DNA of 64,000 nucleotides from an uncultured Mailhella sp. (GTDB lineage: Bacteria; Desulfobacterota; Desulfovibrionia; Desulfovibrionales; Desulfovibrionaceae), in assembly GCF_963931295.1 (NCBI RefSeq), contig NZ_OZ007001.1, forward strand, positions 1,116,001 to 1,180,000. The letters are read 5' to 3'. Every line of letters starts with the position of its first letter. Positions within the stretch are counted from its first letter, which is position 1. Shown here in pieces: positions 14,917-33,879 of the stretch. A program made the translations under genes and the position numbers. The notes under the pieces are model-generated. The model had not been told where the DNA came from and did not search any database. It worked only from the letters and a program-made list of their open reading frames with translations.

Positions 14917-14953
14917 AAGCACTTACATTTTTATGTAAGTGCTTGATTTTTTT
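14917..14953. terminator. Bidirectional terminator at the left attachment site
   Basis: AAGCACTTACAT (14917-14928) pairs perfectly with ATGTAAGTGCTT (14933-14944) around TTTT, with A and T runs outside. Read leftward, it follows the tRNA-Glu-like 3' end at 14953-14970, so it was probably the terminator of the original tRNA gene. Confidence 0.8.
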
Positions 14954-14970
14954 GGCGTCCCCAGGCGGAT
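14951..14970. other. Left attachment site (attL) of the mobilizable element
   Basis: TTTGGCGTCCCCAGGCGGAT occurs here and again at 33880-33899 in the same orientation. On the minus strand it reads as the T-arm, acceptor and CCA end of a tRNA (…CCGCCTGGGGACGCCA). P4-type integrases use tRNA 3' ends, and one lies inside the right repeat. Confidence 0.8.
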
Positions 14971-15227
14971 AAATTTTCAATTACAATCTATTTAATTTAT
15001 TAATTTTTTATATCTTACCATTCATAGATACCTACAAAAATACCTCTTAAATCAAAAATTTTTGGGGGATGGCGTCAGACGCCAATTTTTCTTCCCTTCC
15101 TGATAAGACAGCTTGCTGGTTCAGGTCTGAAAAGGATTTCGCGTGTGAACAAAATGCTAACCGACTTGAGGATGCTCTTCCATTTTCAGAAGTTACAAAA
15201 TTTTTCTTACACTACTTACTGCCGAAA
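14971..15227. other. Left-end non-coding stretch of the mobilizable element
   Basis: This AT-rich stretch lies between attL and the end of the DUF4365-TPR gene. It holds a perfect short palindrome TGGCGTCAGACGCCA (15070-15084) followed by T5, and a GATACCTAC motif near 15029 that resembles sequence near the right end (33720-33757). Both may be integrase arm sites. No gene is seen. Confidence 0.4.
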
Positions 15228-17216
15228 TCAGTCGGTGTCTCGCTGCTTCACACTGCCAAAAGCAGGCCCCTCTCCTGCAAAAAATTGCTCTACTATCTTG
15301 ACGGATTCATGCTTGGGAAATCGTGCAATAGCATTTTCCCATATTTTGAAGGCCATATCCCGATCTCCTAAATTCCAAAGACTTCCTCCAAACTCAAACC
15401 ATACTTCTGTATAATCGGGATTGATTTTTATGGCCTTTTTATATGCTTTTCTACAACCTTCTATATTTCCAAGCCCTTCATATGCCCGCGCGACCTGATA
15501 CCAGCTAAGTTCATCCGGCTGATGTATTTCAGCTTGGGGAAGCAAGATGGAAAGAGCTTCAGCATATTTTCCTAAATGATTTAAAACTACACCAAGACAA
15601 TAACCATACTCATCCGGTTCCTGTTGGCAAGCCTTTCGGTATGCGTCTTCAGCTCGTTCCCATAAACCGTCTGTCTGTGCCCAGTGACCAATGCGATCCC
15701 ATAAAAATGCAGAATCAATGGTGCCGGAATCCATCAACTCCAGCATTTCCCGCTTAAAACTTTCAAAATTTAGATCAACGGGAAAATCCTCTTCGTGAAG
15801 TAGCCATGAACATATGAGATATTCGTACTTTCCTTTTGTGTCTTCGGGAAAATCACGAAGATACTTCTTCCAAAAAAGCAATGACTTCTGAATAGATTCT
15901 ATAGATTCTTTCCCGAATTGCGACACGAACTTGCCGCACCAGGGCAATATCCACTCAAACATCCTGACATGACTCAGTAGGGTATTGATCTCCCTGAATG
16001 CTCCAGCCGAATCTTTTAAATTAAACAATATGGGGATTCGCCATGCATTCACAGATAAAGAACGCGATAATGAGTCCACATCCCAAATGATTTTATCCAA
16101 GTGTTCAAGTGCGGGCTGATACTTTCCTTCAGTGTACAGGCACACGCCCATTGCGAAATGAGCTTCAGGCAAATAGGGGTCCAGCTCTAAAGACTTTTCA
16201 TAGGATTTCCGTTCATCAGTAGAATTACCCAAGGATTTATGCACAGCTCCTATGTTTTTATAGCACATAGCAGCTTCATGCGCGTCTTCCGGAAGAGAGA
16301 ATTCTGTTATTGCCTGCAAATATGAAGACAACGCATTTTGATAGTCCTGCAATATAGAATAGGCATTTCCAATGCAGTATGTGAGATCGCCTTGTTGATG
16401 CCCCTGTTTAGAACGGAGAGCCTCAAATAAGGGGATAGCCTTTTGGACACGTTTCACATCAAACCTGTTCTCATCAATACCCAGATTTATTTCTGCCATA
16501 TAAGCCAATGCGATTGCCTCAGGATATTTACCCAACACCGCATCAAACTTGGGGAATGAGTCACTTATTTTATCGTATTGACCTGCTTTGAACATTTCGA
16601 CAAGTATTTGATATGCGCGCTGAGGCTCACCCGACAAATATATAGGACTAGAGACGGTATTAAGTATCTTATTAAGTTGCTTTGGAGATGTAGTAATACA
16701 TTGAAAGCGCTGTTCCATAAAAAATTTTCCGTCTGTCATAACCAGACTATGCAGCTTATTTTGAAAAACAACGCTAAAATATTCTTTAAATTTAATAGTT
16801 ATATATTTCTGTGTACGCCAATTCGAGCTTTTTTGTTCATACTGCTGTAAGGTGTCGTCTGCGGTTTGGACCAGAAGTCGTTTTGATGGAAGGTGATAAC
16901 AGACATAAATAGAATGAGGCTGGCGTACAAGGTAGTTCAAATTTTTTCTATCAATGGAAATACTTACACTTCCATCGGAGTTTTCTTTGCATTCTGTCCC
17001 CTTAAGCTGTACATGCACGCGAAAGTTCGTCATTGAAGCCCCGATACGAGCTTCAATCTGAATATCGGTACCATAATCATTCGTATCATTACGCTGCTGA
17101 ACAACAAACAGTCCCGCCTCTGTTATGGCATTTTCAAAAGCATTTATAGCGGCCTTTTCAATGTCATGTGCAGCGTCTCGCTGCGGCAGATCGTCTAAAT
17201 AGCTCTTTTCATCCAC
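15228..17216 (-). CDS. DUF4365-like nuclease domain fused to TPR repeats
   Basis: The product is 662 aa. Residues 1-150 resemble DUF4365: Glu20 in an opening helix, GTDIQIEARI with Asp51, and HVQLKGTE with Gln70-x-Lys72. This pattern fits the PD-(D/E)xK restriction-nuclease fold. Residues about 190-650 form TPR-like helical repeats (for example AYSILQDYQNALSSYLQAI, KSLGNSTDERKSYEKSLELD, EGLGNIEGCRKAYKKAIKIN). GTG 17216 lies two bases after the res stop, with GGGAG upstream, so it is the last gene of the restriction operon. Function as an extra effector or sensor is inferred. Its sequence is more AT-rich than res. Confidence 0.75.
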   Translation of the reverse strand: MDEKSYLDDLPQRDAAHDIEKAAINAFENAITEAGLFVVQQRNDTNDYGTDIQIEARIGASMTNFRVHVQLKGTECKENSDGSVSISIDRKNLNYLVRQPHSIYVCYHLPSKRLLVQTADDTLQQYEQKSSNWRTQKYITIKFKEYFSVVFQNKLHSLVMTDGKFFMEQRFQCITTSPKQLNKILNTVSSPIYLSGEPQRAYQILVEMFKAGQYDKISDSFPKFDAVLGKYPEAIALAYMAEINLGIDENRFDVKRVQKAIPLFEALRSKQGHQQGDLTYCIGNAYSILQDYQNALSSYLQAITEFSLPEDAHEAAMCYKNIGAVHKSLGNSTDERKSYEKSLELDPYLPEAHFAMGVCLYTEGKYQPALEHLDKIIWDVDSLSRSLSVNAWRIPILFNLKDSAGAFREINTLLSHVRMFEWILPWCGKFVSQFGKESIESIQKSLLFWKKYLRDFPEDTKGKYEYLICSWLLHEEDFPVDLNFESFKREMLELMDSGTIDSAFLWDRIGHWAQTDGLWERAEDAYRKACQQEPDEYGYCLGVVLNHLGKYAEALSILLPQAEIHQPDELSWYQVARAYEGLGNIEGCRKAYKKAIKINPDYTEVWFEFGGSLWNLGDRDMAFKIWENAIARFPKHESVKIVEQFFAGEGPAFGSVKQRDTD

Positions 17217-17218
17217 GT

Positions 17219-20200
17219 CTAAACTCCCACCCTGAACTCCTTCCAGTCCTTTGCCACCCGCAGCTCCACGCCATTATCCAATGCCTTGAAGTGTTGTCTG
17301 CCGCAGTGGATTTTCAGGGCTTCCGGGGTACGCAGGCCGAAAACGCTGGTGTCACCCTTGGTTTCCAGGACGAAGTAGAGTTTTTTCTCGCCGTCGCGAT
17401 CCAGATACACGGCCCAGTCCGGGTTGTAGGTTCCGATGGGGGTTTCAATTTTGAATGCGCGAGGGATTTTGAAAAACATTTTCACGTCAGGATCGTTGTC
17501 CAAGGCCAAAGCAAAGGGACGCTCCACAGTGCTGCTGTCGTAAATGATATGATCGTAGACGCTGTGCTCGACAGATACGGCATTCTTTTCCAGGTTGGCA
17601 ATAAGCTCTTCGCTGTCGAAAATTTCCTGAATATAATATTCCTGCCCGGCCAGTTTGAGATAGCTGATGCCGTCCACGGCCAGTTGATGGCGACGATTGC
17701 GGATAATTTCCACCGCGCGCTCGATGAACAGTTGCGGATTGTTGCGCAAGTCCTGCAAGCGTCCGCTCTGAAGCAGGATTTCGCAGACCGTAGATCGCTT
17801 GGTCAGGGTCTGTTCACCGATGACAGCCAGCACATCCGGCATGTTGCTGTAGCTGTCTTGGATATCCGTGGTCCGCATTCCCGTTTCCTGATGGCTTACC
17901 CCGGCTGACTCGATATGAATGATCGCGTTTTGCGTGACAAGCCGGGCCGAGGGTATGGGATCCATCTCCTGCAGGTCCTTGACGCACCGGCTGATCAGTA
18001 CGGCGCTGTCGATATTGACTCTGTATGTGGTTTTCTGCTTGATCTTGTTCCATAGCTCCAGAAATTCCGGAGATGCCGTGACCTGTTTCTTCAGCTTGAC
18101 CGTCACGTCTTTGGAAGCGTCGCGGAGAGGGGGACGCCTGTCCGCATTCCTGATGATGGATTCAAAGCGTTCGCGCGCCGCCTCAAATTTTTTCGGCAGA
18201 TCCAGAGTCCCAGTTTTCAGAGCATTTTTCAGGGTATCCTTGATGTTGCCGTTTTTGTCTGTGTAGCCCTTGGCGTGCAAGTGGTTCAGCAATTCCTGGG
18301 CGTCCTCATAGGAAACGGTCTTTTCCGTCTGTACGGTGCGTGTGTAGGTCGCGCCGCACAGGGCGGTTTTCAAGGCGGCGGTTGTCACCGGCGTGGCCGC
18401 GGCAGTGCTTGCCGCGGTAACCGATGTGATTGCTTTGGCGACTTCCACCGTAGCCGCAGCCACTTCCTTCGGCAAATCCAGGCTGTCTTGTTCAACGGCG
18501 GTCTGCAGCGCAGGTTGCGCCCGACCTTCGGGTGAAATGTAACCCTGTTTTTCGAGGTGCGCGACAATCTGCGCGACTTCTTCCGGGGTGATGGTCTTTT
18601 GTTCCTCAATGGTATCCGTGTACGTCATCCCGGTAAACAGGCTCAGTTGCAGAACGCCGAACTTCAGGCCGGTTTCATCCTCGATTTCCTTCTGGAGCGT
18701 GGCCGCAAATTCGGCAAAACTCTCGTTCGCCATGACGTGCAGCAGATTGATATCCTTGTCGTCAATGCGCTCGCCGTCCTGGTTCACGCACAAACGCAGG
18801 CCGCGCCCGACTTTCTGACGACAGGTGAATACAGATTTCTGCTCAATCAGCGTGCAGACTTGAAAAACGTTGGGGTTGTCCCATCCCTCTTTCAGAGCCG
18901 AATGCGAGAAAATGAAACGCAGCGGACAGTTAAAAGACAGCAGCCATTCCTTGTCTTTCATGATGGTGTTGTAGGTGCTGGTGTCGTCCTGGGTATCGCC
19001 TCTGGTGTCCTTGTAGTGGCCCTTTTTGTCCTGAGAAAAATAGCCGTCATGCACTTTTTCAACCGGATTGCGGAACCGCTCCTTAAGCTCGGCGTACTTC
19101 GGCAGATTCAAAAGTTCGTGGTAACACTCCTCGAACATTTCCGCATAAGGCCCTTTTCCGCCTTCCGGGGTGCGGTATTTTTTAACCTCGTCGATAAAGA
19201 ACAGAGAAAGTACCTTGATGCCCTTTTTCGTAAGGCGCAATTCCTTGTCAAAATGGGTCTCAATAGTGCGGCGAATCTGCGCCCGCTTGACGATGTTCTC
19301 ATCAATGCCGCCGATGGTCCGGCCTAGTTTAAGAAATTCCGTATTGCCGAATTCAACACATTCATATCCCGGTGTGCAGTCGATGCCCGCCACCGTGTAC
19401 CCTTCATAAAGCTCACGCCGACCGGAAAGGACAAACAAGTCTGAATTCGGTTTTATGGTGACGTTTTTGCGGGACACCTTACCGTCTTTAGCGGCGACGT
19501 CCATTTCCACTTTGGCCCGATAGCCCTTGTCGTCTTTGGTTACGGAAAGCAGTTTGATGTACGGCTTGTTGAATCCGTGGGCCACCTGGTTGGAAAACAC
19601 ACAGATCTGCTTCACCAGTCCCATCTGGTAGGCGTCAACCGGCGTCAGGCGAAACAGCAGATTGACTTTTTCCCGGTGGGTAGCGGAATAACGCAGCACG
19701 CAGAGCGGATTCAGCGAGGCAATAGCTTCCTTTGCCTTGGGCGTGTTGTCCACGCTCTGCGGTTCGTCAATGATCACTATGGGCCGGGTATCGCGGATAA
19801 AACGCATGGCGGATTCGCCGGAGAGCCGGTCCTGAACCTGATTGATGACGTTCTCGGCCTTTTTAAACGCGTCGATGTTGATGATCATGATTTCGATGTT
19901 GGCGCTGGTTGCGAACTGGCGCACATCGGACAAACGGGCGCTGTTGTAAATGAAATAACGGCACGGAACACGGTTGTAGAGAACGCCGAAGTGCTCCTGC
20001 GTGACTTGCAGAGATTTGTACCCCCCCTCGCGGATGGCCACGGACGGCACCACGATGATGAACTTGGCGAAGCCGAAACGCTTGTGCAGCTCAAAGATGG
20101 TTTTGGTATAGACGTAGGTTTTCCCGGTTCCCGTCTCCATTTCCACGCTGAACTGCCTGCCTTCCAGATCATGCGTCATGGGCAGGGTATTGTGTTTCTG

Positions 20201-20401
20201 CACTGCCTGCATGTTGGCGAGCATGGCGGCGTCATCAATAAGCAGGGCATTGCCGATACCGTACTGATTTTCCAGCAGGGAAAACTGTTCGCCCTGGACA
20301 ATAGAGAAGGTGGCGGTCTTCTTTTCCTGACCGATGAACAGATCAGCCACAGCATTGACGGCGGCTGTCTGGAAAGATTGTTTGATAAACTTAAGTTTCA
20401 T
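17219..20401 (-). CDS. res: Type III restriction enzyme, Res subunit
   Basis: The 1060-aa product has superfamily 2 helicase motifs: Walker A METGTGKTYVYTKTIFE, DEPQ box VIIDEPQSVDN, SAT motif LRYSATHREKV, and FIFSHSALKEGWDNPNVFQV with QKVGRGLRL (motifs V-VI). A C-terminal endonuclease domain shows NPDWAVYLD followed by LYFVLETKGD, the PD-ExK-type site. An Ala/Thr-rich linker (about residues 645-675) joins them. Res cuts DNA only in complex with Mod, using ATP. Its mod gene lies at 21760-24664 and is IS-interrupted, with an unrelated gene between them. The ribosome site before ATG 20401 is weak. Confidence 0.93.
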   Translation of the reverse strand: MKLKFIKQSFQTAAVNAVADLFIGQEKKTATFSIVQGEQFSLLENQYGIGNALLIDDAAMLANMQAVQKHNTLPMTHDLEGRQFSVEMETGTGKTYVYTKTIFELHKRFGFAKFIIVVPSVAIREGGYKSLQVTQEHFGVLYNRVPCRYFIYNSARLSDVRQFATSANIEIMIINIDAFKKAENVINQVQDRLSGESAMRFIRDTRPIVIIDEPQSVDNTPKAKEAIASLNPLCVLRYSATHREKVNLLFRLTPVDAYQMGLVKQICVFSNQVAHGFNKPYIKLLSVTKDDKGYRAKVEMDVAAKDGKVSRKNVTIKPNSDLFVLSGRRELYEGYTVAGIDCTPGYECVEFGNTEFLKLGRTIGGIDENIVKRAQIRRTIETHFDKELRLTKKGIKVLSLFFIDEVKKYRTPEGGKGPYAEMFEECYHELLNLPKYAELKERFRNPVEKVHDGYFSQDKKGHYKDTRGDTQDDTSTYNTIMKDKEWLLSFNCPLRFIFSHSALKEGWDNPNVFQVCTLIEQKSVFTCRQKVGRGLRLCVNQDGERIDDKDINLLHVMANESFAEFAATLQKEIEDETGLKFGVLQLSLFTGMTYTDTIEEQKTITPEEVAQIVAHLEKQGYISPEGRAQPALQTAVEQDSLDLPKEVAAATVEVAKAITSVTAASTAAATPVTTAALKTALCGATYTRTVQTEKTVSYEDAQELLNHLHAKGYTDKNGNIKDTLKNALKTGTLDLPKKFEAARERFESIIRNADRRPPLRDASKDVTVKLKKQVTASPEFLELWNKIKQKTTYRVNIDSAVLISRCVKDLQEMDPIPSARLVTQNAIIHIESAGVSHQETGMRTTDIQDSYSNMPDVLAVIGEQTLTKRSTVCEILLQSGRLQDLRNNPQLFIERAVEIIRNRRHQLAVDGISYLKLAGQEYYIQEIFDSEELIANLEKNAVSVEHSVYDHIIYDSSTVERPFALALDNDPDVKMFFKIPRAFKIETPIGTYNPDWAVYLDRDGEKKLYFVLETKGDTSVFGLRTPEALKIHCGRQHFKALDNGVELRVAKDWKEFRVGV

Positions 20402-20455
20402 GACAGTCTAAAATATAAATCCTTAAAGTATTAACTTAATAATTAGGTTACCTGG

Positions 20456-21688
20456 TTAGCTATGTCGACTTTTTTTACTTTTTTGCTTTTTCATAGCCAA
20501 TATAAAAAGTAAAATGTCAATACAAACCATTGATGAACATGAAAACAATAATTCAACACACCCGTTTATGTAGTCAAAATAATCGATTGTATATATTTTT
20601 TGGGGATCTTTTTTGGGTTGGTACGATATTATTTTTTTTGTTGGATCGTATTCAAATGTTGCATGATGAGAGCCGTTACGAATCGAAACATTATATTCTG
20701 AATAAATATTGATAAATTCCGGTATTCTCTCAAAGCACTTTATTCTATTTACTTTATCTATCTGTAAATAATTATCTAATGTAAAATCTTTTGTGGCGAA
20801 TGTATCATATTCTATTCCTGCTTCAATATTTTGAATAGCTGCAAAAGTAACAGCACCAGAACCAAGGACCTCAAAAGCAAATCCATAAAAGTCACGCGTC
20901 TTAGCGAAATCATATGAAGACAAAGCGCTTTTAATGAAAGGTCTATTCAACTTATAACTTATGAACAGTTGTGAATATTCAGAATAGGCATCAAAAAATC
21001 TTTCAAATATAGAATAATACTTTCTAATCCTATTTTTTACATTGCTACTATGGTAAACTAAATATTTGTCAAATTCTTCTTCATACTTTTCTGCTATTTC
21101 ATAAATTTTCTCTTTTGCATCGATGAGTAATTGAATCCTACCGTTACAAAGGGTTCTTGCGCAAAAGTCATAAATCCAGTGAAGAGCACCAGCAGCACTC
21201 TCCGGATATTGTATGCTATTTTGTTTTGATATATTGTCTGCAAGAGTAATATTATTCTTATTGAATTGAGACCAAGCCCTTTTAATTTTTGGCCACTCGT
21301 CATCAAGACGCAAGATCCTTTCTGCTTCTGACACACCTCTTTCATATTCTTTCCGATCTAATGTTACCCCTTTTTCTTTCATTTCGGCAAACAATTGCTG
21401 AGCGGCAAAAATTCCGGGACTAAAGAATGGATCATGCCTATAACTTTCTGGAATTTGGTTTTCCGAAGATAAATTTTCAATTATGCCTTCCTCCTCACAG
21501 CATTCACAATTATTAACTAAATCGAAACCAACATTAGGTGGATTCGATAAATCAAGCTTTATTTCTATCTCTTCACCACATCCAGAACAGTTAAATACAT
21601 GTTTTTGTTCTTTTGAGTGACCAATATCAATCCTCAGAGTCGAAATGGTACCACAAGTGAGGCATTTTACGTTTATTCTTTGAATCAT
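20456..21688 (-). CDS. Zinc-ribbon protein with HEPN-like RNxxxH motif, unknown function
   Basis: The 410-aa product starts MIQRINVKCLTCGTI. Cys9, Cys12, Cys34 and Cys37 form a zinc ribbon, and a further CxCC follows at 61-64. The middle is helical and charged. Near the end R337-N338-G-S-H-H342 fits the RX4-6H signature of HEPN ribonucleases with the usual polar residue after Arg, and a hydrophobic helix follows (CVELLFSCSSMVCIDILLFI). It sits between mod and res, an unusual place. It is far more AT-rich than both, which indicates separate acquisition. AGGGGA precedes the start. HEPN assignment is a motif-level inference; it could be a simple insertion-site passenger. Confidence 0.6.
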   Translation of the reverse strand: MIQRINVKCLTCGTISTLRIDIGHSKEQKHVFNCSGCGEEIEIKLDLSNPPNVGFDLVNNCECCEEEGIIENLSSENQIPESYRHDPFFSPGIFAAQQLFAEMKEKGVTLDRKEYERGVSEAERILRLDDEWPKIKRAWSQFNKNNITLADNISKQNSIQYPESAAGALHWIYDFCARTLCNGRIQLLIDAKEKIYEIAEKYEEEFDKYLVYHSSNVKNRIRKYYSIFERFFDAYSEYSQLFISYKLNRPFIKSALSSYDFAKTRDFYGFAFEVLGSGAVTFAAIQNIEAGIEYDTFATKDFTLDNYLQIDKVNRIKCFERIPEFINIYSEYNVSIRNGSHHATFEYDPTKKIISYQPKKDPQKIYTIDYFDYINGCVELLFSCSSMVCIDILLFILAMKKQKSKKSRHS

Positions 21689-23820
21689 TTACATGTCCCC
21701 TTTGCAATAGATTCCAGACGATACAGAATGTCACTATTTTTACACAATTATCAAAAAACTTAGACTAACTTCAGCTCAATATTCCTGTCACGCAGGATAT
21801 AGAAGGCGTTGGACATAGCCGTATCGTCGGCCAGGGAGTTTTCGGACAGAACGATTTGCCCCGGCGCGTACTCCGCCATTTCCTCGACCATTTCCACGGT
21901 CAGACCGTCCGACAGGCAGATAAGCAGCAGAAAATCCCCCACAGACCAGGCGGTTTTGCCGGAAATATCCACCGACGACACGTTGTACGTCAGGGGAACG
22001 CCCATCTTGAGCATGATTTCATACACTACATCCAGATCGGTCCGGTCCGGCTTTATCCGGTCGATCATATTGTGCAGCCGGTTGCTGATGGAAAGCAGAT
22101 CATCTTCCGGGAAGGGCGTGCTGTCCCAGGTTTTCAGATTGGAGGAATCCAGCTTGAAGACCTTGAAACCGGTGTCAGGCAACGGAGAATTACCTGAAGC
22201 ATCTTCACCATCAGGGACAAGCGAAAGCTGTTCCGCATGTTTTGTCATCTGTTTTTCATGCTGCTTTGCAGGTTCGATATTCTCAAGTATCTTCGCACCG
22301 GCCCGCCGAATGCGCTCCTTGCCTATTTCACAGATATTTTTGTATCCGGCCTTGAACGCTTCCGAACTTTCCGGACAAAGTTCCGGAAGCTGCACCATAA
22401 TAAAACGACGCTTGCCTCCGTCTTCTGCATTGAGCTGCATCACCGCATGGGCCGTACTTCCAGATCCAGAAAAAAAGTCCAGAATTATCGCATTCGAATC
22501 ATCACCACAAACGTAGTCAAAAAGTTTTGCAAGTTCAAAATGATCTTTGGGGTTATCGAAAAATTTTCCACCCAGCAATTTTCTAAAATATTTAATAGCG
22601 ACCTGCGATTGTTTATAGAAATAACTTCCACGTACTTGGGTCGCTAGTTCTTCTTCGTTGGATTCTTCATTAACTAAATCCAATTCATCTCCAGAATGCA
22701 CGGGGCGTATATGTGCCTTGCGGAATGGAGGATCTGTTTCATCCTTACGAAATTCGACCAATCCCAGAGAAATTTGTCGTTGCATTTCTTGAGGTGACGA
22801 GTAGATCCAGCCACGCTCAGGCACTTTGCACGCTTTACCAGTTATAGGATGAATTACATCATAGCGAGGACCTCCGCCGCCGGGCCATGAAATATCACGA
22901 TCTCGCCAAGGGCCATTTGCATCAACCCGTTTATATCGACTCCATTTTTTTGAAGGATGTTTTGCTGGTAACGACGAAAACCATTGTTGTAGTTCTTTTT
23001 CAATTGAAGCATCATCGGTGCCATATTCTTCACGAAGTTTTAAATATTTCTCCCAAATTTCTTTTGTTCCTGGTTTGTTTTCGCGCCAGATAGTCTTAAG
23101 CTCCCGGAGTCTACACAGACTCTTTGCATAAAGGAGAAGGTACTCATGACCAACTGAAAAAAGTTTGGCGTCGTTTTTTCGCCCTTTTTCCCAAACGAGA
23201 CAGGCGACAAAATTCTCTTCCCCAAAAACTTCATCACATAACTTCCGCAAGTTATGCACTTCATGGTCATCTATGGAAATAAAAATAACCCCGTCATCAC
23301 GCAACAAATTCGCCGCCAGGCGCAAGCGCGGGTACATCATGTTCAGCCAGTTGGTATGAAAGCGGCCCATGACCTCAGGGTTGCTTTTGGTGGTCTGGCT
23401 GGTCACTTCCCTGTAGCGTTCGAGCGGGTCTTTAAAATCATCCTCGTACACAAAATCGTTGCCCGTATTGTACGGCGGGTCGATGTAGATCATCTTCACC
23501 TGCCTAAAATACGAAGCCTGCAACAGCTTTAAGACTTCCAGGTTGTCGCCTTCAATATACAGATTCTGCGTGGTGTCGAAGTTGACGCTTTCTTCAGGAC
23601 ACGGACGAAGCGTTGCCGTAGAACGCTGCTGGGCCAGGCGCAGGCACTCGCTTTTCCCCTTCCAGGTAAATTCGTACTTCTCAAAATCCTTGAGGATGTA
23701 TTCGCCGCAGAGTGAAAGCAGCTTGTCGATATCCAGCTTGCCCTCCACAAAGCACTGCGGGAAAACCGAAGCCAGCTTTTCGCGCTCGGTCAGTTCAATA
23801 TTCTTGGAGAGTCCTTCTAG

Positions 23821-24651
23821 ATAGTGTCGTCAAATTATGTTTGCCCACAAAGATATGCATCTGATTTGAACGGCGGCAAGAAAAGATGCACATCTTTTGG
23901 CATATCGTGTGGCAATTCCCCGCCAGCGCTTGAGATGGAGAAAAGCATTCTCGACAAGATGCCTGACTTTGTAGAGCTCTCTGTCATAGTTGCGTGATAT
24001 TTTACGACTTCTCTTTGGCGGGATGACAACCTGGAAACCGGATTCACCTGCTTTGCGGAGAATACTCTCCGTATCGTAGCCTCTATCAGCCAAAAGTGCC
24101 CCGGCACTCAACCCGTCAATCAACGCACAGGCCTCTTTGCAATCAGCTCGGGTACCTTCTGTAACAATAACTCTGACCGGCATACCATGCGCATCCACGG
24201 CCAGGTGTATTTTTGAGTTGAGCCCCCTTTTGTGCGGCTCATGGCCTCATTACCTCCCGCAGCGCCCGCCGCATGGGGATGTACTTTGCAATGACTGGCA
24301 TCAATGATGAGCCATTCAAAATCAGGTTCGACAATGAGAGCTTCGAGTATTTTCTCCCAAACTCCCCGATCTCGCCATCGGCAGAAGCGGCGATGTGTAT
24401 TTTTCCAGTCGCCAAGATCGGGGGGTAAATCCCGCCACGGAGCCCCGGTTCTCAGTATCCAGAAGACGGTGTTGATAAACAATCGGTTATCGGCGGAAGG
24501 ACGACCGACAGAGCCTTTGGAACCGGGAAGAAGTTTTTCAATATTTGCCCATACCTTGTCGGAAATATCATGCCTCCGATGTGCCGCCATATGGTCTCTC
24601 CTCATTGTAAGTGAAGAGATTATAACATACTTTTAAATTTGACGACACTAT
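23821..24651 (-). mobile_element. IS5-family insertion sequence in mod
   Basis: The ends are 16-bp perfect inverted repeats (ATAGTGTCGTCAAATT at 23821-23836 and its complement at 24636-24651). A 4-bp CTAG is duplicated on both sides (23817-23820 and 24652-24655). The 831-bp length and two-frame transposase fit the IS427 group. It is a different element from the one at 11216-12047: the ends and the protein sequences do not match. Confidence 0.92.
23830..24605 (-). CDS. IS5-family transposase, two frames joined by -1 frameshift
   Basis: OrfA (24120-24605) starts at ATG 24605 or ATG 24590 and reads HDISDKVWANIEKLLPGSKG, RTGAPWRDLPPDLGDWKNTH and WLIIDASHCKVHPHAAGA. OrfB continues after a -1 slip in the AAAAGGGGG run (24222-24231, minus strand) with GLNSKIHLAVDAHGMPVRV, LLADRGYDTESILRKAG and YKVRHLVENAFLHLKRWRG, giving the DDE triad. 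The stop (23830) lies inside the terminal repeat. Both frames look intact. Confidence 0.88.
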
Positions 24652-24688
24652 CTAGTTTTTCCATAAAATCACCCGGTTTTCCTGAAAA

Positions 24689-27547
24689 TCATGCCGTGCC
24701 GCTTACCTGTACCACAAACAGACGTTCCATCGTTGCGGCAAGTTGCGCGTCAGCCAAAAGCTCTTGTATGTGTTCTTCGAGCTCCGTGTCCAGTTGACGG
24801 TGTTGAGCGGACAGTTGTTGTTCCGCCCGCCTCAACTCTGCGGTCAATCGGCTGCATCGGCGTTGCAGGGACAGTCGCTCCATGCGCGAAAGCTCCTTGT
24901 CCAAAGCGGCCCTGGCTGTTTTCACCTGGAAGCGTAACCCCTCAAGACGGCGCATCAGCTCGACTTTACGCTCGGCCGCCTTGTTTTTCAAAGCGTTGAC
25001 GGCCTCTTTTTCCGCTGAATCGGTTTCCGTAAGCACCTTGCGGATAAAATCATCGCCGGAAATGAGTCTGTCCAGCTTATGCTCCACGGCAGGACGCAAA
25101 TGGCGGTTACGTTTGCCCACAGGTTCGCCCCGTACAGAGAAGTCACGCACCGGTAAGGCCATGAGCGCGGCGCATTCGTCATGGGAAAGCACGCGGCCGG
25201 AACGGGTTTCCCCTGTCAGCGGATAAAAGGCATACCCGCCCCAAAAGTTCCCCTTGGGCCGAACCCGCACTTCATACAATGCAAGTTCGCACGGCTCAAT
25301 ATCCGCGTCTACAACAAGGCTCCCGCTTTCCGGAATGCCGCGCCAGAACATTTCTCCAAAGATACCTCTTGCAAGAGAACCGGTGACCGTGTGACGGCCG
25401 GAGCGCGGCTGATAGTCTTTGGCCATGCCATATTCCATGCGGCGCAACGCCTTGCCGGTGAATACCTTGGGCGGCGGAAGATGCGTAACGGCAACCGTGC
25501 GGGTTGCGTCATCCAGACGAAAGCCCTGTTTTCCTGCAAAAAACCAGCGAGTGACATACCACAGGTCGTCTTCAATCTCTTTTGTCTTGGCTTCGATATA
25601 GCGCGGGGTGATGTAAACCTTTTCCGCTATATCCCTGGTGAAGGAAGTGAACAGCGAATGTTCGGCCCGGCTTACAAGCTCTTTGTTCTGCGCTTCAAAC
25701 CGCTCCAATGTGCTTTGATGGGTCTGCTCTATCTCCTGTCTGGTCCGGGCCTTGGCGAGCATGTTGGAAAAATTGCCTTCCGAATCATTGCTGAAGTTGC
25801 CGATTACCGTATCCGACATGCCGAAGATGCCGGAAAATTGCAGAATACGTTTGTTGATCAGCTCCAGAGTACGCACATCAGCAAAATTGTTGCGGTTCAG
25901 GAAATTGAGAATGATCACGTCCGACTGCTGCCCCTGTCGGTGACAACGGTTGATGCGCTGCTCAAGGGTGAGCGTATTGTACGGCAAATCGTAGTTGATA
26001 ACAAAGGAACAGAATTCCAGATTGAAACCTTCCGCCCCGATATCCGTGGAAATGAGAATTTTCGCCTCATCCTGAAAGCGTTTCATGATGGAATACTCGC
26101 GGGTTTTCCCGCCGTGATAGGTCAGCACCCTGCCCTTGTACGGGCCGTTATCCAGCAGGGAAAACAAAAAATCCTGCGTGGCCCGGTTTTCGGTGAAGAT
26201 AAGGGCTTTCTGCTTTGCGCCCAGTTCCTTGAGCCGGGCAAAGCCCTGCTTCAAGCCTGCAAGCAGTTCTGTAGCCTTGGCATTTTGTTTGATGCAGGAG
26301 GCCAAAGTCTGCATGTGATGAAGTTCGGAAAGTTCAGCGGCAATATGCGCGCTCTTTATTTCAGCGCTGGATTCCATCCGTCGAATTACGCCGCGCAACA
26401 GTTTGTCTAAAGCAAATGTGGAGGAGGAAAAAGTGCGAAAGAACAGGAGCGCCAGATCGTACTGGTCCATGTTCGGGAATGCGACCCTGCTCCCCTTTTG
26501 CACATACCTATCAAGCAGATCATACAGTTCCTGCTCTTTGGGAGTGAGCGTGAATTCAGCGGTAATCGGAATGCGGTCCGGAATCTTGACGTAGTTCGTT
26601 ACTTCCTGTCTGGTGGTCCGAAAACAGAAGGGGCCGACTCTGTCAGCCAGTTCCGGATAGTTTTCAGGCTTGCGGAAATAACGCTCGTAAAACGCTTTTT
26701 CATCCGGAAACACCGTCTCGTCAATAACATGAATCAGACCGTACAGATCCATGATGGAGTTCTGCATGGGCGTGGCCGTAAGCAGAATCTTGAAGGCTCT
26801 GCCGACCGCGTTTTTCAAAACAGCGGCGGTCTTGTTGGTGTCCGCGTATATCCGGCGAAGATGGTGGGCTTCTTCAAAAACAACCGCGTCCCACTGCACC
26901 TTGGCGATGTATTCGACATTTTGCGCCGCAATGTCGTAGGTCGTCAGAACAATCCCATCCTGAAGAAAAGGATTGCCGTCCCCATTGTAGCTTACGTCAT
27001 GAACCGTGGCCAAGTCCAATGCAAAACAGGGAACAGAGAAACTTTTATCAATGGTCTCGCGCCATTGGTAAAGCAAGGGAGTGGGCACAACAAGCAACAG
27101 CCGGTCTTTGCCCTCATACCAAAGCTGGCTGATGATCAACAGGGCTTCATACGTTTTACCCAACGAACCCTCGTCACACAAAATAACGCCTTTCAGATAC
27201 GGTGAACGCAAGGCAAAACGCGCGGCTGCTATCTGGTAGGGATAGACTTCAATATTGGAAGACGCGAAAACAGCCGTCAGTCTGTCCTGACCAAAGGCGT
27301 AGTTTGAAAGCTTATGGGCTTTGTACAGGGCGTGAAAAGGGGACAAGGACAACTGTTTTTCCTCCTTTTCTTTTTTAGGTAAGAAAAAAGCCCTCGTCAA
27401 TTGATACCGCGCGGCGTTTTGGTCCGTTCCAAGGTAAAAACAGCCAACTTCACGCTTATGACACGTTTCCATCCAGTGTGGTGGAACCGAGGGTAAGCAT
27501 GGCAAGGTTCTGTCGATATCTTTCAATTGTGTCACGGTGATACTCAT
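24689..27547 (-). CDS. SNF2/RapA-like DNA helicase of the type III R-M cassette
   Basis: The 952-aa product has superfamily 2 Snf2-type motifs: I LCDEGSLGKTYEALL (a variant of DEMGLGKT), II VFEEAHHLRRIY, III LLTATPMQNSIMDLYGL, V LISTDIGAEGFNLEFC and VI LEQRINRCHRQGQQSDV. A long C-terminal part includes a basic coiled coil (about residues 840-930). ATG 27547 follows AGGGGA; the longer frame upstream is not used. It lies 24 bp before the native mod start, so they were one operon. Snf2 helicases accompany methylases in several phage-defence systems such as DISARM, but no other DISARM gene is here. Confidence 0.85.
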   Translation of the reverse strand: MSITVTQLKDIDRTLPCLPSVPPHWMETCHKREVGCFYLGTDQNAARYQLTRAFFLPKKEKEEKQLSLSPFHALYKAHKLSNYAFGQDRLTAVFASSNIEVYPYQIAAARFALRSPYLKGVILCDEGSLGKTYEALLIISQLWYEGKDRLLLVVPTPLLYQWRETIDKSFSVPCFALDLATVHDVSYNGDGNPFLQDGIVLTTYDIAAQNVEYIAKVQWDAVVFEEAHHLRRIYADTNKTAAVLKNAVGRAFKILLTATPMQNSIMDLYGLIHVIDETVFPDEKAFYERYFRKPENYPELADRVGPFCFRTTRQEVTNYVKIPDRIPITAEFTLTPKEQELYDLLDRYVQKGSRVAFPNMDQYDLALLFFRTFSSSTFALDKLLRGVIRRMESSAEIKSAHIAAELSELHHMQTLASCIKQNAKATELLAGLKQGFARLKELGAKQKALIFTENRATQDFLFSLLDNGPYKGRVLTYHGGKTREYSIMKRFQDEAKILISTDIGAEGFNLEFCSFVINYDLPYNTLTLEQRINRCHRQGQQSDVIILNFLNRNNFADVRTLELINKRILQFSGIFGMSDTVIGNFSNDSEGNFSNMLAKARTRQEIEQTHQSTLERFEAQNKELVSRAEHSLFTSFTRDIAEKVYITPRYIEAKTKEIEDDLWYVTRWFFAGKQGFRLDDATRTVAVTHLPPPKVFTGKALRRMEYGMAKDYQPRSGRHTVTGSLARGIFGEMFWRGIPESGSLVVDADIEPCELALYEVRVRPKGNFWGGYAFYPLTGETRSGRVLSHDECAALMALPVRDFSVRGEPVGKRNRHLRPAVEHKLDRLISGDDFIRKVLTETDSAEKEAVNALKNKAAERKVELMRRLEGLRFQVKTARAALDKELSRMERLSLQRRCSRLTAELRRAEQQLSAQHRQLDTELEEHIQELLADAQLAATMERLFVVQVSGTA

Positions 27548-27691
27548 GGTGTTTTCCCCTGTATTTCTCCAACGCACTGACTCGAATTGGCGTTTTGCCT
27601 TTCCGGTCGAGCGGGACGGTCGCCCACGCTTCACGAAGTGAAGCATAGTGGGCTATATCTTCGGTCTGTGCGAAGATTTCTCCCCGACGCC
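27548..27691. other. Short intergenic region between mobV and helicase
   Basis: It holds a 7-bp hairpin, GCTTCAC-GAA-GTGAAGC (27628-27644), with no U tract. It probably contains the promoter of the minus-strand defence operon, but I could not assign boxes with confidence. Confidence 0.4.
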
Positions 27692-28876
27692 TTAGCGCAT
27701 CCTCGTGCCACGGACGGTCATTGCCTGCCGATGCTCGCTGTCCCGCGAGTCCTGCTCCCGCCGCTGCAGTCCCTCTTCCTGGCGCTGAAGCTGTTCAGCA
27801 CATTTGCGCTCCACAAATTCAAGATGCAGCGGTCTGATTTCCGGCAGAAGCAAAAATTCCCGATAGCCGGCCATGATTCTCTCCATCTTCTTCAACTGAA
27901 ATTCCAGAGCCTCTTTTTCCTCATGACTTTGCTTTCTGTGTGTCGTGTATTCCGCTTCAAGGCGTGTCTGTTTTTTACGCAGCGAGTCCACTTCCCGTTT
28001 CAGGATTTCCTTCTCTGTCTGGACAAGATGCTTGACGGCAAGCGCCTTTTTCAGCTCTTCAATAATAAAGGAGGCTTTTTCCAGCACAGACGGATAATTG
28101 AAAAGTGAGGCTTTCGGCAAGGAAGAGTCTTCACGAAGGACTTTTTCCGCCTCCTCGGCCTGCCGCTCATAGGCTTCGATGCTCTTTTTCAATTCCTCTT
28201 CGCGTTGTCCCAGAATCCCAAGTGACTGCAAGGAATCACGCATCAAGGCAGCAGCTTCCTGCGCCAGCCGTGCCAGTTCCTCTTTCTGCTGTTTGAACTC
28301 GCGGGTATTCAGATGCTTTTTGGCGGAACCGGGCGTCTGCTCCACGCCTCGTTCAATGGCAAAACCTCGGCTTTGCAGATAGGCGGGAAGTTCGGATTGC
28401 AGTTTTCGCAGACTCTGACGCGTATAAATTTTGTTGGCGTTGAGTCTCCCGTCCTGCGTGACCGGCACATGGAAAAAGTGCATATGCGGCGTCTTTTCAT
28501 CCATGTGAACCATTGCGGAAACGACATTCTCCGCCCCTACAAACTCCGTAAGAAAGGCTTTGCTCTCCTCAAAGAATCGTCTGGCGTCTTCTGAAGAAAG
28601 ATTCTGAAAAAAGGCGCTGTCCGAGGTGACGATAAGCCCGCACATACGCACGGCGTCCTTTCTCACTGCTTTGGCCAACTGAAGAGCGTCAATGCGGCGC
28701 TGAATGGCCCCGGCATAGTTTGTCGACGCGGATTCGTGCAATTCGTAGTTCGCCGTACTCCTGCCGTAGTCAATATCGGGGTTGCTGTGACTCTCCCGTT
28801 CCCGCCGGTTATGGCTCTGGATGCCGCGTATGGCCTCTTTCTTGAACTTATCCATATGGAGGACGAGGTAGGACAT
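27692..28876 (-). CDS. MobV-family relaxase (Mob/Pre)
   Basis: The 394-aa product starts MSYLVLHMDKFKKEAIRGIQ, with HNRRERESHSNPDIDYGRS and the metal-binding motif MVHMDEKTPHMHFFHVPVT (three-His cluster near residue 125), all MobV/Pre hallmarks. The C-terminal 200 residues are a coiled coil rich in Glu, Lys and Arg. MobV relaxases nick oriT and lead single-strand transfer of small mobilizable plasmids and elements. ATG 28876 has AAGGAAG upstream; the longer frame is rejected. The candidate oriT lies directly upstream (29023-29066). Confidence 0.9.
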   Translation of the reverse strand: MSYLVLHMDKFKKEAIRGIQSHNRRERESHSNPDIDYGRSTANYELHESASTNYAGAIQRRIDALQLAKAVRKDAVRMCGLIVTSDSAFFQNLSSEDARRFFEESKAFLTEFVGAENVVSAMVHMDEKTPHMHFFHVPVTQDGRLNANKIYTRQSLRKLQSELPAYLQSRGFAIERGVEQTPGSAKKHLNTREFKQQKEELARLAQEAAALMRDSLQSLGILGQREEELKKSIEAYERQAEEAEKVLREDSSLPKASLFNYPSVLEKASFIIEELKKALAVKHLVQTEKEILKREVDSLRKKQTRLEAEYTTHRKQSHEEKEALEFQLKKMERIMAGYREFLLLPEIRPLHLEFVERKCAEQLQRQEEGLQRREQDSRDSEHRQAMTVRGTRMR

Positions 28877-29022
28877 GATGAAACTTCCTTGTATCCATGA
28901 CTGCACCATTTCTGATGCGGCAGAAAAGCGGTACACTTTTCCCGTTCAAACGGTACAAAAGGGGATGACGTATTCGGACCTGACCGGACATCACCGGATA
29001 ACTGACGGATCGAATATTGCGA

Positions 29023-29066
29023 GTGTACCGCTGTACCACGGCTTAAGAGGCGGTACAGCGGTACAC
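29023..29066. repeat. Candidate oriT: 15-bp perfect inverted repeat upstream of mobV
   Basis: GTGTACCGCTGTACC (29023-29037) pairs with GGTACAGCGGTACAC (29052-29066) around a 14-nt loop. More copies of GGTACA occur at about 28930-28955. It lies between the helicase stop and the relaxase start, where MobV origins are found, and has no U tract, which argues against a terminator. The nick site cannot be assigned by eye. Confidence 0.55.
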
Positions 29067-29082
29067 CTGATCATATGAGCCT

Positions 29083-29853
29083 TCAGAAATGTTCCTCCAA
29101 TTTCTTTTTCAGTCTCTGGATGGCCCCTTTGGATTTCCCCATTTCCTCTGCGCAGTCGCGGATGCTGTAGCCTTCTTTTAAAAGTCGTCTCAAGCTTTCC
29201 AGTTCAACGTCTTCCAGCTCTCTGACCTGCCAGTGGAGCGCATTACCTTCGGTAACAAGATTGGCCTCAAATGGTTTGGCGTCATCACCCAATATGCCCC
29301 GTGCCTTGGTCAGGTGGACCTCAAAACGTGCTCCTTCGGCCATACTGTATTCCCTGGGTCTGCGCAGGCTGATCACCGTGTCCATAATATCTTCCCTGGC
29401 GCTGGTGCCACGCTGGTCGCCGGATTTTCCGGCATGATGGATAAGCAGGAAGGTCATACCCCTGCGGCGCAACTCCAGCAGCCATGCCTGCATGGTCTGC
29501 CAGGACTGCGATTCATTTTCCTTGCCGGTGCGGCACAAGGTAGCAATGTTGTCCAGCACCACCATGTCCACACCTTGCAGAAAAGGCTCAATCATGCCCT
29601 GCCCACCGGCGGTGGACAAATCCGGCATGGGACAAGGTTGCAGGTCCGGTGTGATGAGCGCCATGTTTTTCAACGTATGCGGAGGAACGGACATACCGCT
29701 GACAAGCGCTGCAAGACGACTCTGCATGGATGTGGCAGGCATTTCCCCATCCACATACAGCGTTCGTTTAGGCATCGGCGCACGCCAGTTGAACACCGCA
29801 CCGCCGGAAGCCACGGCAACGGCTAAACGTCTTGCCGATGCCGCGCGGAGCAT
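29083..29853 (-). CDS. RepA-like hexameric helicase part (downstream of frameshift)
   Basis: This frame encodes a RecA-fold ATPase: LYVDGEMPATSMQSRLAAL (Walker A′ region), MVVLDNIATLCRTGKENESQ (Walker B), FLLIHHAGKSGDQRGTSARE and DTVISLRRPREY, as in RSF1010 RepA and AAA_25 proteins. A C-terminal helix-turn-helix-like tail (YSIRDCAEEMGKSKGAIQRL) follows. The Walker A (LYAPRGIGKT) is encoded in the other frame by the preceding primase ORF, and the two join at 'aag acg ttt agcc' near 29822. So this is the second half of one primase-helicase gene with a one-base insertion, or a frameshift-translated pair. Confidence 0.75.
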   Translation of the reverse strand: MLRAASARRLAVAVASGGAVFNWRAPMPKRTLYVDGEMPATSMQSRLAALVSGMSVPPHTLKNMALITPDLQPCPMPDLSTAGGQGMIEPFLQGVDMVVLDNIATLCRTGKENESQSWQTMQAWLLELRRRGMTFLLIHHAGKSGDQRGTSAREDIMDTVISLRRPREYSMAEGARFEVHLTKARGILGDDAKPFEANLVTEGNALHWQVRELEDVELESLRRLLKEGYSIRDCAEEMGKSKGAIQRLKKKLEEHF

Positions 29854-30856
29854 ACAGGATGCCTATCCCTTGAACCGGAAGAATGGGGGATAAAAGATAC
29901 CCCCGTTCAGGTATGGACATGGAAAGAAACTCCCCCATGTCCAGAGAAATCAGAGACGGACGGGCAGCTGTATGCATGGCCTCTTCCACCTGACGGAGAA
30001 CTTCCTCCAGCCCCTCACTCTGATGCAGGTCGTTGAAGTCTTTCCCCTCGCCGGTGGTAAACTTGGGCAGGACCAATCGAGTCTGTGCTGCTTGAGCAGC
30101 TTCCTGCCCTTTACTGCGGCCTGCTTCATCATTGTCACCACAAATAAGGATGGAAGCCTCCGGGAATCTGTGTCTCACAAGATTGGCCACGACAGGCAGA
30201 TTATTGGCTGAGAACGTCACATATACGGTGCAGTTGACGGCTAGATGGATGCTTGCTCCCGTAGCATAACCTTCGCAAAGGGCTAGAGGCTTTTCCGACT
30301 TGCCGGGAATAATGAAATGTCCTCCCTGTACTTTGCCGCCCGTGAGAAAACGCTTTGTCCCGTCCGGGGCGATATATTGCAGGCTTTGTAAGGTTCCCGA
30401 TATATCCCTGACTGGAAGGAGCAGCAGACCGCTCCGGGTCTGACGCATATCACCAAGCGCGGGAACGCCTTTACGCCGTAAATATGTGTGTTCCGACGAG
30501 CAGGGAAAAGATGCATCCAAGACGCCCTGGGCCTGTTTTGCCGCTGCTTCATACCGGCGGGCACATTCTTCCTCTCGTTGATGACGAATGTTGTGTTGCC
30601 GTTTCTGCCATGCTTCCTTTTCAGCCGGGGAGAACGTTCTCTGATCCATTTCAGTAAACGTCCCCTGGTCTCCGCTCTCCCAGTTGCACCACCAGAGCGT
30701 GGCAGGAGGGTCAACATGCGCGATGTATGCGCCGTTCTGTTTATGCGGCCTGGTCTGCGTGGGACAACGATGCAGTTTTCCGTCCGCTTCGATGTCAGAC
30801 GGAATCAAGCCCTTGTCGGTCAGGATGTCCCGAAAATTTTGCAGGGGATTACTCAT
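29768..30856 (-). CDS. Toprim primase part of a primase-helicase (upstream of frameshift)
   Basis: ATG 30856 begins MSNPLQNFRDILTDKGLIPS. A CHC2-like N-terminal zone (RCPTQTRPHKQNGAYIAHVD, WWCNWESGD) is followed by a Toprim domain with KPLALCEGYATGASIHLA (catalytic Glu) and ILICGDNDEAGRS (DxD region). The frame then reaches GIGILYAPRGIGKT, the Walker A of the helicase, and goes out of frame into a 19-residue tail before stopping at 29768. Proteins of this type prime and unwind DNA for replication of mobilizable elements. The start overlaps the alpA stop by 8 bp. Confidence 0.8.
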   Translation of the reverse strand: MSNPLQNFRDILTDKGLIPSDIEADGKLHRCPTQTRPHKQNGAYIAHVDPPATLWWCNWESGDQGTFTEMDQRTFSPAEKEAWQKRQHNIRHQREEECARRYEAAAKQAQGVLDASFPCSSEHTYLRRKGVPALGDMRQTRSGLLLLPVRDISGTLQSLQYIAPDGTKRFLTGGKVQGGHFIIPGKSEKPLALCEGYATGASIHLAVNCTVYVTFSANNLPVVANLVRHRFPEASILICGDNDEAGRSKGQEAAQAAQTRLVLPKFTTGEGKDFNDLHQSEGLEEVLRQVEEAMHTAARPSLISLDMGEFLSMSIPERGYLLSPILPVQGIGILYAPRGIGKTFSRCRGFRRCGVQLACADA

Positions 30857-31067
30857 GCTCTTCCCCCTGCCTGCCAAGACTTTCGATGAACGCGGCAATA
30901 TCTTCTGCTCTCCAGACCGTGGTTCTGGGACCAAGTTTCACGGGTTTGGGATAACGCCCGGTCCGACAGCCTTCCCACCATGCGCTCTTGCTTATGGGAA
31001 TCATGCTGAGAACCTGAGGAAGACGCAAAAGGCCGTGGGCGGGGATGGACGGTTGGTGCTGTTTCAT
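30849..31067 (-). CDS. AlpA-family transcriptional regulator
   Basis: The 72-aa product starts MKQHQPSIPAHGLLRLPQVL. It has the AlpA/MerR-like winged helix pattern: LPQVLSMIPISKSAWWEGCR, GRYPKPVKLGPRTTVWRAED, then IAAFIESL. AlpA-type proteins control excision or replication genes of P4-like elements. It is first in an operon with primase and helicase. A hairpin followed by T7 sits exactly between ribosome site and start, suggesting control at the RNA level. Confidence 0.85.
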   Translation of the reverse strand: MKQHQPSIPAHGLLRLPQVLSMIPISKSAWWEGCRTGRYPKPVKLGPRTTVWRAEDIAAFIESLGRQGEEHE

Positions 31068-31102
31068 AAAAAAATCTCCTGAATCTGTTTGGATTTCAGG
31101 AG
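31068..31102 (-). promoter_or_regulatory. Hairpin overlapping the alpA ribosome binding site
   Basis: On the minus strand CTCCTGAA (31095-31102) pairs with TTCAGGAG (31076-31083), followed by a run of seven T that ends at the ATG. The stem contains the CAGGAG ribosome site. It could act as an attenuator or as a start-blocking hairpin. Confidence 0.5.
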
Positions 31103-31121
31103 ACTCTGGCACACGTCCAAA

Positions 31122-31178
31122 GATTCCCGTGAGGGAATCGGACGGGAAAAGAACGGGAACTTCTCAAAAAGACGGGAA
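31122..31178. repeat. Palindrome and ACGGGAA repeats upstream of alpA
   Basis: A 7-4-7 palindrome GATTCCC-GTGA-GGGAATC (31122-31139) is followed by three copies of ACGGGAA (31142-31148, 31153-31159, 31172-31178). They lie in the 124-bp gap before alpA. They may be an operator, iterons for the element's primase/helicase, or excisionase sites. Confidence 0.5.
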
Positions 31179-31191
31179 AACAGCAGGCTGG

Positions 31192-32181
31192 TCACGCCTT
31201 GACTATGGTGTATGTCTCCGCTTCCTTGAGGAGCATATCCATCAAATTGCGATAGGATTTGTCGTCCCTGTACTCTTTGCCCGCAAGCAAACGTCCCACA
31301 TGTGTCTTTCTGCCCTGCGGGGTTTTGTGACTGGTCTCGGATTTTTGAGGACCACACCAGTACAGAAGAACATAAGCGATGACCGAAAGAGGATACTTTT
31401 CTTTCATGGCGTCACGGACGGCGGCGTCCGGCCTTCCTTGCCAGACGGCTCCGGGAATACGGAAAATAAATTTTTCATCCTGCGGTGCCCTTTCACACAG
31501 GGGAACTGCCGCCACTTTATCGGCAACGGAAGATTCCGGCGAAGCTGTCTGTAAAACGGCTTCCACAAGAGCACGGGTGATGCCTTTCACTTCCCGGCGC
31601 AGGGGATAGTAGCGAAGCTGCCTGATGGCGACGCTCCTATCCACCATTATAGTATCAGCAAAGATATGTGCAATAAAGTGATAACTTGAGGCGGGAATGG
31701 AGAATATCGGCTTATCAAAGAGAGGTGAATCCGGTGAATACTGCGCGAAGATGTCTGTTGTGCTCAGTATTTTCAAACTGCTGAACAGAAATTCTCGTTC
31801 CTTGGGAAAGACAGACGCCGTATCTTCAAAGGATTCTTCAAGAATGACATTCAACCCATATTGTAGGGAGGTAACAGGAACAAGCGTTGATATCTTTCTG
31901 AAAAATTCCATCACATCAAAGCCAAGCAGATATGTCTGAATGCCCGCCACCAGTTCCGGCCCTGAAGGAAATTCCGGTATCTGCGTTCCATATGCGGCGT
32001 GACTGCCAGCAACAAATGCCTGCCAGCAGGATTCATATGTTGTGCGCCATAATTCCAGAGGTTGAACTGCGTCAGGCCAGAGCGCCTGAACAAGCATGTC
32101 GCCTTCTCTGACAGTCAGGCCATACGCCTGCCGTACTCTGCCTAGGGTAATAATCTGCCGGTCTATCATGGAAAAAAGCAT
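31192..32181 (-). CDS. Protein of unknown function of the mobilizable element
   Basis: The 329-aa product starts MLFSMIDRQIITLGRVRQAY (or at the inner Met5). It has no membrane segment. Features visible are an aromatic, helical N-terminal half and a basic C-terminus (KTPQGRKTHVGRLLAGKEYR). I recognise no family. It lies between the integrase group and alpA, all on the minus strand, so it may belong to the replication or excision set. A restriction- or DNA-binding role cannot be shown. Confidence 0.6.
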   Translation of the reverse strand: MLFSMIDRQIITLGRVRQAYGLTVREGDMLVQALWPDAVQPLELWRTTYESCWQAFVAGSHAAYGTQIPEFPSGPELVAGIQTYLLGFDVMEFFRKISTLVPVTSLQYGLNVILEESFEDTASVFPKEREFLFSSLKILSTTDIFAQYSPDSPLFDKPIFSIPASSYHFIAHIFADTIMVDRSVAIRQLRYYPLRREVKGITRALVEAVLQTASPESSVADKVAAVPLCERAPQDEKFIFRIPGAVWQGRPDAAVRDAMKEKYPLSVIAYVLLYWCGPQKSETSHKTPQGRKTHVGRLLAGKEYRDDKSYRNLMDMLLKEAETYTIVKA

Positions 32182-32266
32182 AGTCTGTTGTCAAAAAATG
32201 GACAACAAAAAACAGCGGCAGGGACTTCCAATGTCCTCGCTACCGCTGTTTCCTGTAAAACCTGTT

Positions 32267-32434
32267 TCAGCTATACCATACCCGGATGATATCCATGTCG
32301 TCATAGCCGTATTGTCTCATACGGTCCTTGTCTTCTTCGCTCCAGCCAGTGTCGTTTTCCGTCACCTGCGTTTCATCCTCTGTTTTCCCGATAACGATAC
32401 AGACATTCCGTTCTGTCATGGCGTTCTCTTTCAT
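32267..32434 (-). CDS. Small acidic protein coupled to the integrase
   Basis: The 55-aa product starts MKENAMTERNVCIVIGKTED and ends DDMDIIRVWYS. Its ATG overlaps the integrase stop (ATGA), with GGAG upstream, so it is translated together with the integrase. It is strongly acidic. No family recognised; an excisionase or a recombination modulator is possible only from position. Confidence 0.6.
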   Translation of the reverse strand: MKENAMTERNVCIVIGKTEDETQVTENDTGWSEEDKDRMRQYGYDDMDIIRVWYS

Positions 32435-33642: not shown

Positions 33643-33719
33643 GGGTACTCCCTGGCTGTCGTTGGACGAAGGGATACCCACATGGATAAAAATATTTTTG
33701 ATTCCGCGCGGTTATTCAT

Positions 33720-33757
33720 GTAGGTATCAGAAATGTCATACCACATTTCTACCTACG
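33720..33757. repeat. Imperfect hairpin between integrase and attachment site
   Basis: GTAGGTA followed by GAAATGT pairs with ACATTTC followed by TACCTAC around a short loop. The location between int and the core repeat, and GATACCTAC-like sequence at the left end, suggest integrase arm binding sites. Confidence 0.4.
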
Positions 33758-33819
33758 GATATACCCATAAAATGTTTGGATGCAAGCGGACGAGGCTGGA
33801 CTTCGGGAAACCATACCGG

Positions 33820-33866
33820 AAAGAAAAAACAAAGAACGCCAAGACGTTATGCATCTTGGCGTTCTT
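33820..33866 (-). terminator. Rho-independent terminator reading leftward from the tRNA relic
   Basis: AAGAACGCCAAG (33832-33843) pairs with CTTGGCGTTCTT (33855-33866). On the minus strand the stem is followed by TTTGTTTTTTC. It lies 15 bp beyond the CCA end of the tRNA-like sequence, as a tRNA terminator would. Confidence 0.8.
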
Positions 33867-33879
33867 CATTGTACTCAAA

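Follow-up and report, generated by a model that had tools for sequence, protein, structure and literature searches.

Genes and mobile features of the locus

The analysed window, i.e., the whole stretch of 64,000 nucleotides from an uncultured Mailhella sp., carries a type III restriction–modification (R-M) operon in which a gene for a 410-aa protein with an N-terminal zinc ribbon lies between the methyltransferase gene mod and the restriction gene res (Table 1). The open reading frame is intact, starts with the ATG at 21688 and is immediately preceded by an apparent Shine–Dalgarno-like AAAGGGG. All three genes occupy one strand, with mod located 71 bp upstream and res 54 bp downstream. The last gene of the operon is probably the one for a DUF4365/TPR protein, which would represent an additional defence-type gene.

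Table 1. Features of the type III R-M locus and of the protein encoded in its mod–res interval (coordinates are those of the window)
Feature	Coordinates	Strand	Basis
Integrative element with the locus, 18.9 kb	14951..33899	.	20-bp perfect direct repeat; integrase, relaxase and Toprim genes inside
DUF4365 (nuclease-like) + TPR repeat protein	15228..17216	-	Pfam DUF4365 E 6e-16, TPR; 2 bp after res
Type III restriction subunit (res)	17219..20401	-	PADLOC REase_III E 0; Pfam ResIII, RE_endonuc
Zinc-ribbon/HEPN-like protein gene, 410 aa	20456..21688	-	ORF; full-length homologues; dN/dS 0.12–0.26 in close homologue pairs
C-terminal HEPN-like helical domain, residues 203–409	20462..21082	-	AlphaFold model
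R337-N-G-S-H-H342, predicted RNase motif	20663..20680	-	RN[AG]SHH in every homologue
Invariant Glu273 (FYGxAFE), second long helix of the domain	20870..20872	-	16/16 rows of alignment A4
Zinc ribbon, residues 1–46, Cys9/Cys12/Cys34/Cys37	21551..21688	-	Homologue Cys, weak Pfam match, predicted strands
Type III DNA methyltransferase (mod)	21760..23748	-	PADLOC MTase_III E 1e-187

The original prediction described the gene as far more AT-rich than its neighbours and as encoding two CxxC pairs within residues 9–37 together with an R337-N-G-S-H-H342 motif, and these descriptions proved accurate. The GC content of the gene is 32.4% (GC3 25.1%) against 47.4% in mod (GC3 51.4%) and 53.2% in res (GC3 68.1%), with 54.2% for the whole window; the cysteines occupy residues 9, 12, 34 and 37. 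The composition supports the view that the gene is foreign to its surroundings, and its difference from both mod and res points to a recent insertion.

A perfect 20-bp direct repeat, TTTGGCGTCCCCAGGCGGAT, occurs at 14951–14970 and 33880–33899 (0 expected in shuffles) and brackets the R-M operon along with integrase, Mob_Pre relaxase, Toprim and AAA_25 genes. The right copy runs into a sequence resembling the 3′ end of a tRNA; ARAGORN called no tRNA within the window. The 18.9-kb segment is an integrative element which carries defence genes and can probably be mobilized. In the genome (contig 1, 886091–1196711), the 17-base core of the repeat is present in seven copies, which share one orientation and are spread over 310 kb of the chromosome; this suggests repeated integration at one target.

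Directly upstream of mod, apart from an insertion sequence, lies a gene for a DrmD-like SNF2 helicase (24689–27646). Such a helicase gene was also found in two related loci (at 7858–10743 of L040, and upstream of mod in L042), and helicase–mod–cargo–res is a possible operon type. The insertion between the SNF2 gene and mod encodes an IS4/5-family transposase in two overlapping frames (23830–24605), which stop some 80 bp short of the mod start, and may affect mod expression.

Conservation and distribution of the protein family

None of the Pfam, NCBIfam and PADLOC models names the protein. Its sole profile match is phrog_13366, which covers residues 192–392 and has no recorded function. Twenty homologous loci, 21–34% identical to the protein, were found; they come from Alpha- and Betaproteobacteria and one planctomycete, as well as from (pro)viral contigs. 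Four of these are on plasmids of Rhizobium, Ensifer and Novosphingobium, ten on genome contigs (rhizobia, sphingomonads, Tropicimonas, Comamonas, Nitrotoga, an unclassified proteobacterium and a Phycisphaeraceae MAG), and six on IMG/VR contigs; this set includes the near-duplicates L004/L011 and L019/L020 as well as two loci cut by contig ends (L015/L016). Among 395 genomes of the host phylum, one weak partial match was detected besides the protein itself, and the phrog_13366 search in this phylum returned, besides the window, only weak and mostly partial matches. No homologue was found in the phage collection, nor in a scan of genome contigs with the single protein. The zinc-ribbon RN[AG]SHH family is rare.

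The motif takes the form RN[AG]SHH in all 20 homologous loci. This conservation is essential for reading the motif, since RNx3H arises in about 2.4% of composition-matched shuffles of the protein and the looser Rx4-6H in 68% of them: in one protein, taken alone, the RN-xxx-H motif is weak evidence, and it is its strict conservation across the 20 loci that raises it above chance. In alignment A4 (16 rows), the invariant gap-free columns are F175, Q240, S258, F261, G269, A271, E273, N287, R337, N338, S340, H341, H342, Y370 and Y373. The cysteines C9/C12 and C34/C37 are kept in every homologue whose N-terminus is on the contig; Pfam zinc-ribbon models match the protein at E 0.01, below the cut-off, and the two CxxC knuckles together with predicted beta strands identify a zinc ribbon.

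For five close homologue pairs with dS of 0.10–0.33, dN/dS is 0.12–0.26, and the relatives of the protein are under purifying selection; three prophage-type pairs were uninformative for dN/dS because their dS is saturated. Matches to PPR proteins in the PDB were rejected as an artefact, since they result from adding up about nine sub-threshold copies of a single 21-residue match in designed repeat proteins.

Predicted fold and relation to HEPN nucleases

Anantharaman et al. (2013, PMC3710099) described the HEPN motif as Rx4-6H, with N, D or H after the Arg, placed at the end of helix 3, and a supporting acid in helix 2, typically as Ex3[KR], in many though not all families. In the Csx1 HEPN family, a beta hairpin follows right after the motif, and both zinc ribbon–HEPN fusions and HEPN genes within R-M operons are established (PMC3710099).

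The AlphaFold model of the full-length protein, built with a 16-sequence alignment (mean pLDDT 84, pTM 0.71), contains a beta-rich zinc ribbon (residues 1–73), a poorly modelled linker (about 80–110) and a helical body. In its C-terminal half, helices 203–246 and 267–289 are followed by short helices (304–340), and after the motif there are a beta hairpin and a long last helix (370–409). According to AlphaFold/DSSP, R337 belongs to helix 334–340, while H341 and H342 are in the loop just after it. This succession agrees with the layout given in the HEPN survey, including the hairpin known from Csx1. The model places E273, a candidate active-site acid, in helix 267–289; position +4 from it (residue 277) is Ser, i.e., the Ex3[KR] form is absent, and helix 3 is short and broken. 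The motif itself is an Rx4-6H with a polar residue after the Arg, conserved throughout the family.

Searches by fold used only the full-length model (a single-sequence model of residues 209–410, with pLDDT 38, was left unused). Foldseek, run against the PDB without a positive control, returned no HEPN structure up to E = 10, and against BFVD it returned nothing at E <= 0.001. No HEPN family of Pfam matched the protein. Using hhalign, we obtained probabilities of at most 0.2% against DUF4145, Abi_C, Apea and Ymh, no better than with a reversed query; this is a weak negative, since with equally shallow alignments known HEPN families matched each other in only 1/6 pairs. A C-terminal profile used with hmmsearch against the PDB gave a lone NTF2-like match, which we judged to be due to chance.

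The idea of a HEPN ribonuclease, from which this analysis started, thus stands in part. An HEPN-type nuclease is supported by the invariant RN[AG]SHH, by an invariant Glu on a helix that precedes the motif, and by the order of the predicted helices, while Foldseek, profiles and HMMs provide no HEPN match. Because of the missing Foldseek and hhalign matches (the latter coming from a weak test), we call the protein HEPN-like instead of a proven member: judged by sequence and model, its membership of the superfamily is probable but unproven.

The same missing matches by fold and by profile would also fit a protein that is not a nuclease at all, but a zinc-ribbon nucleic-acid-binding protein or a phage-encoded regulatory (e.g., anti-defence) protein that uses its conserved RN-SHH patch for ligand or metal binding. 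Such a role would agree with the occurrence of several homologues on viral contigs, with the fact that phrog_13366 matches 17/18 family members, and with the pair of invariant His residues and the tyrosines, which go beyond the minimal HEPN motif. We nevertheless consider it unlikely, since the motif and the acid in a preceding helix, both invariant, as well as the order of helices fit HEPN.

Genomic partners and the mod–res interval

Relatives of the Mod and Res proteins are absent from the flanks (up to 10 kb) of all 20 homologous loci, and in an all-against-all comparison of the neighbours no partner gene recurred except among closely related replicons. The L005 homologue abuts an ABC-three-component operon, the L012 homologue is convergent with another one (DUF2326 ATPase, ABC-3C CTD12), and the L022 homologue is near Vsr, C5 methylase and GHKL ATPase genes; others are in prophage or plasmid backbones. 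The family occurs in mobile contexts and has no fixed partner gene.

The zinc-ribbon/HEPN-like gene is likewise missing from the related mod/res loci found in the host phylum (13 loci, L039–L051). In 8/13 of these operons, other open reading frames are located between mod and res, coding for SLFN_AlbA_2 or RecG-C-like ATPases, DUF1016_N, RhuM, Bro-N, 23S IVP and Fic proteins. The two genes are adjacent in 3/13 loci, the order res–X–mod occurs in 1/13, and in the remaining one (L041:6343-7121) a 0.8-kb gap contains no clear same-strand gene and is possibly a decayed cargo gene. Since 8 of the 13 operons have other occupants, the mod–res interval behaves as a cargo slot. In the open-access PMC literature, we found no account of type III R-M operons in which another gene separates mod from res, nor of the HEPN architecture proposed here.

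The original prediction considered a toxin guarded by the R-M operon, and released on inhibition of Mod/Res, to be a plausible model. In a version of this model similar to PrrC, which accompanies the PrrI system (PMC3710099), the nuclease would be restrained by Mod and/or Res and freed when a phage inhibits the R-M complex. The arrangement of the locus is compatible with such a guard, as mod and res are both intact, the three genes share one strand with only short gaps between them, and no terminator-like site was found. However, the conserved linkage of nuclease and R-M genes that characterises the PrrC type was found neither among the homologues (0/20) nor among the related operons (0/13), the interval often contains an unrelated accessory gene, and the composition is strongly unlike that of mod and res. 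As the homologues occur by themselves, with no fixed partner, Mod/Res cannot be a general antitoxin for the family, and the guard relationship could at most be a local arrangement; we estimate it as quite improbable.

Least probable of all is an inert or decaying AT-rich passenger in the mod–res gap, functionless in its host, which would explain the divergent composition and the lack of close relatives among the 395 genomes of the phylum, but not the intact 410-codon frame with an apparent ribosome-binding site or the conservation of the catalytic-type residues and zinc cysteines.

Proposed function and comparison with known systems

We suggest, giving it slightly better than an even chance, that the gene encodes a zinc-ribbon HEPN-like RNase which is portable and probably serves defence, and that it was acquired into the type III R-M operon. 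The mobile and defensive reading is supported by homologues that reside on plasmids or (pro)viral contigs and, in several cases (L005, L012 and L022), lie near defence-type genes. According to this proposal, a horizontally moving stand-alone cassette would have been inserted into the accessory slot between mod and res, on an integrative element. Nucleic acid or an infection signal may be recognised by the zinc ribbon together with the middle helices, and the C-terminal helical domain would probably dimerise, as is usual for HEPN proteins. This domain could cut RNA in a metal-free manner using R337/N338 and either H341 or H342, with the assistance of E273, and the resulting damage to host or phage RNA would halt phage production.

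A more far-reaching version of this proposal is rather doubtful: the protein would represent a new family of HEPN-like RNases, distinguished by an RN[AG]SHH/FYGxAFE active site and sensing through the zinc ribbon, and would work as a single-gene anti-phage system which the type III R-M operon captured as a second defence line in its mod–res cargo slot, a slot that accepts Fic, RhuM and SLFN_AlbA_2 genes as well. If true, an unannotated single-gene RNase family would join the testable defence proteins, and the mod–res interval of this type III clade would be an exchangeable slot for toxin-like cargo. Such a slot would explain how second defence lines occur in R-M operons without a dedicated antitoxin relationship.

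With the HEPN superfamily (Anantharaman et al. 2013, PMC3710099), including its DUF4145 and Abi2/Swt1 zinc-ribbon clades, the protein has in common Rx4H with Asn after the Arg, an acid in a preceding helix (though without the typical Ex3[KR] form), the position of the motif before the last helix, an N-terminal zinc ribbon and location in an R-M operon. Neither by sequence nor by Foldseek is it detectably similar to the HEPN families tested, and it also differs by its invariant second His, the flanking FYGxAFE and Tyr motifs, and the beta hairpin that separates the motif from the last helix. Phrog_13366 covers nearly the whole family but carries no function, so it provides no name for the protein.

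PrrC of the PrrI type Ic R-M system is also encoded by an HEPN-type gene inside an R-M operon. However, PrrC carries an ABC NTPase and belongs to a type I system, whereas the protein described here has a zinc ribbon and resides in a type III operon, and its gene, unlike prrC, has no conserved linkage to R-M genes. A positional parallel is given by the accessory DOC/Fic and RhuM genes, which are already known from R-M neighbourhoods (PMC3710099) and occupy the same mod–res position in the related operons; the zinc-ribbon/HEPN-like protein belongs to a different family and represents a new occupant of this slot.
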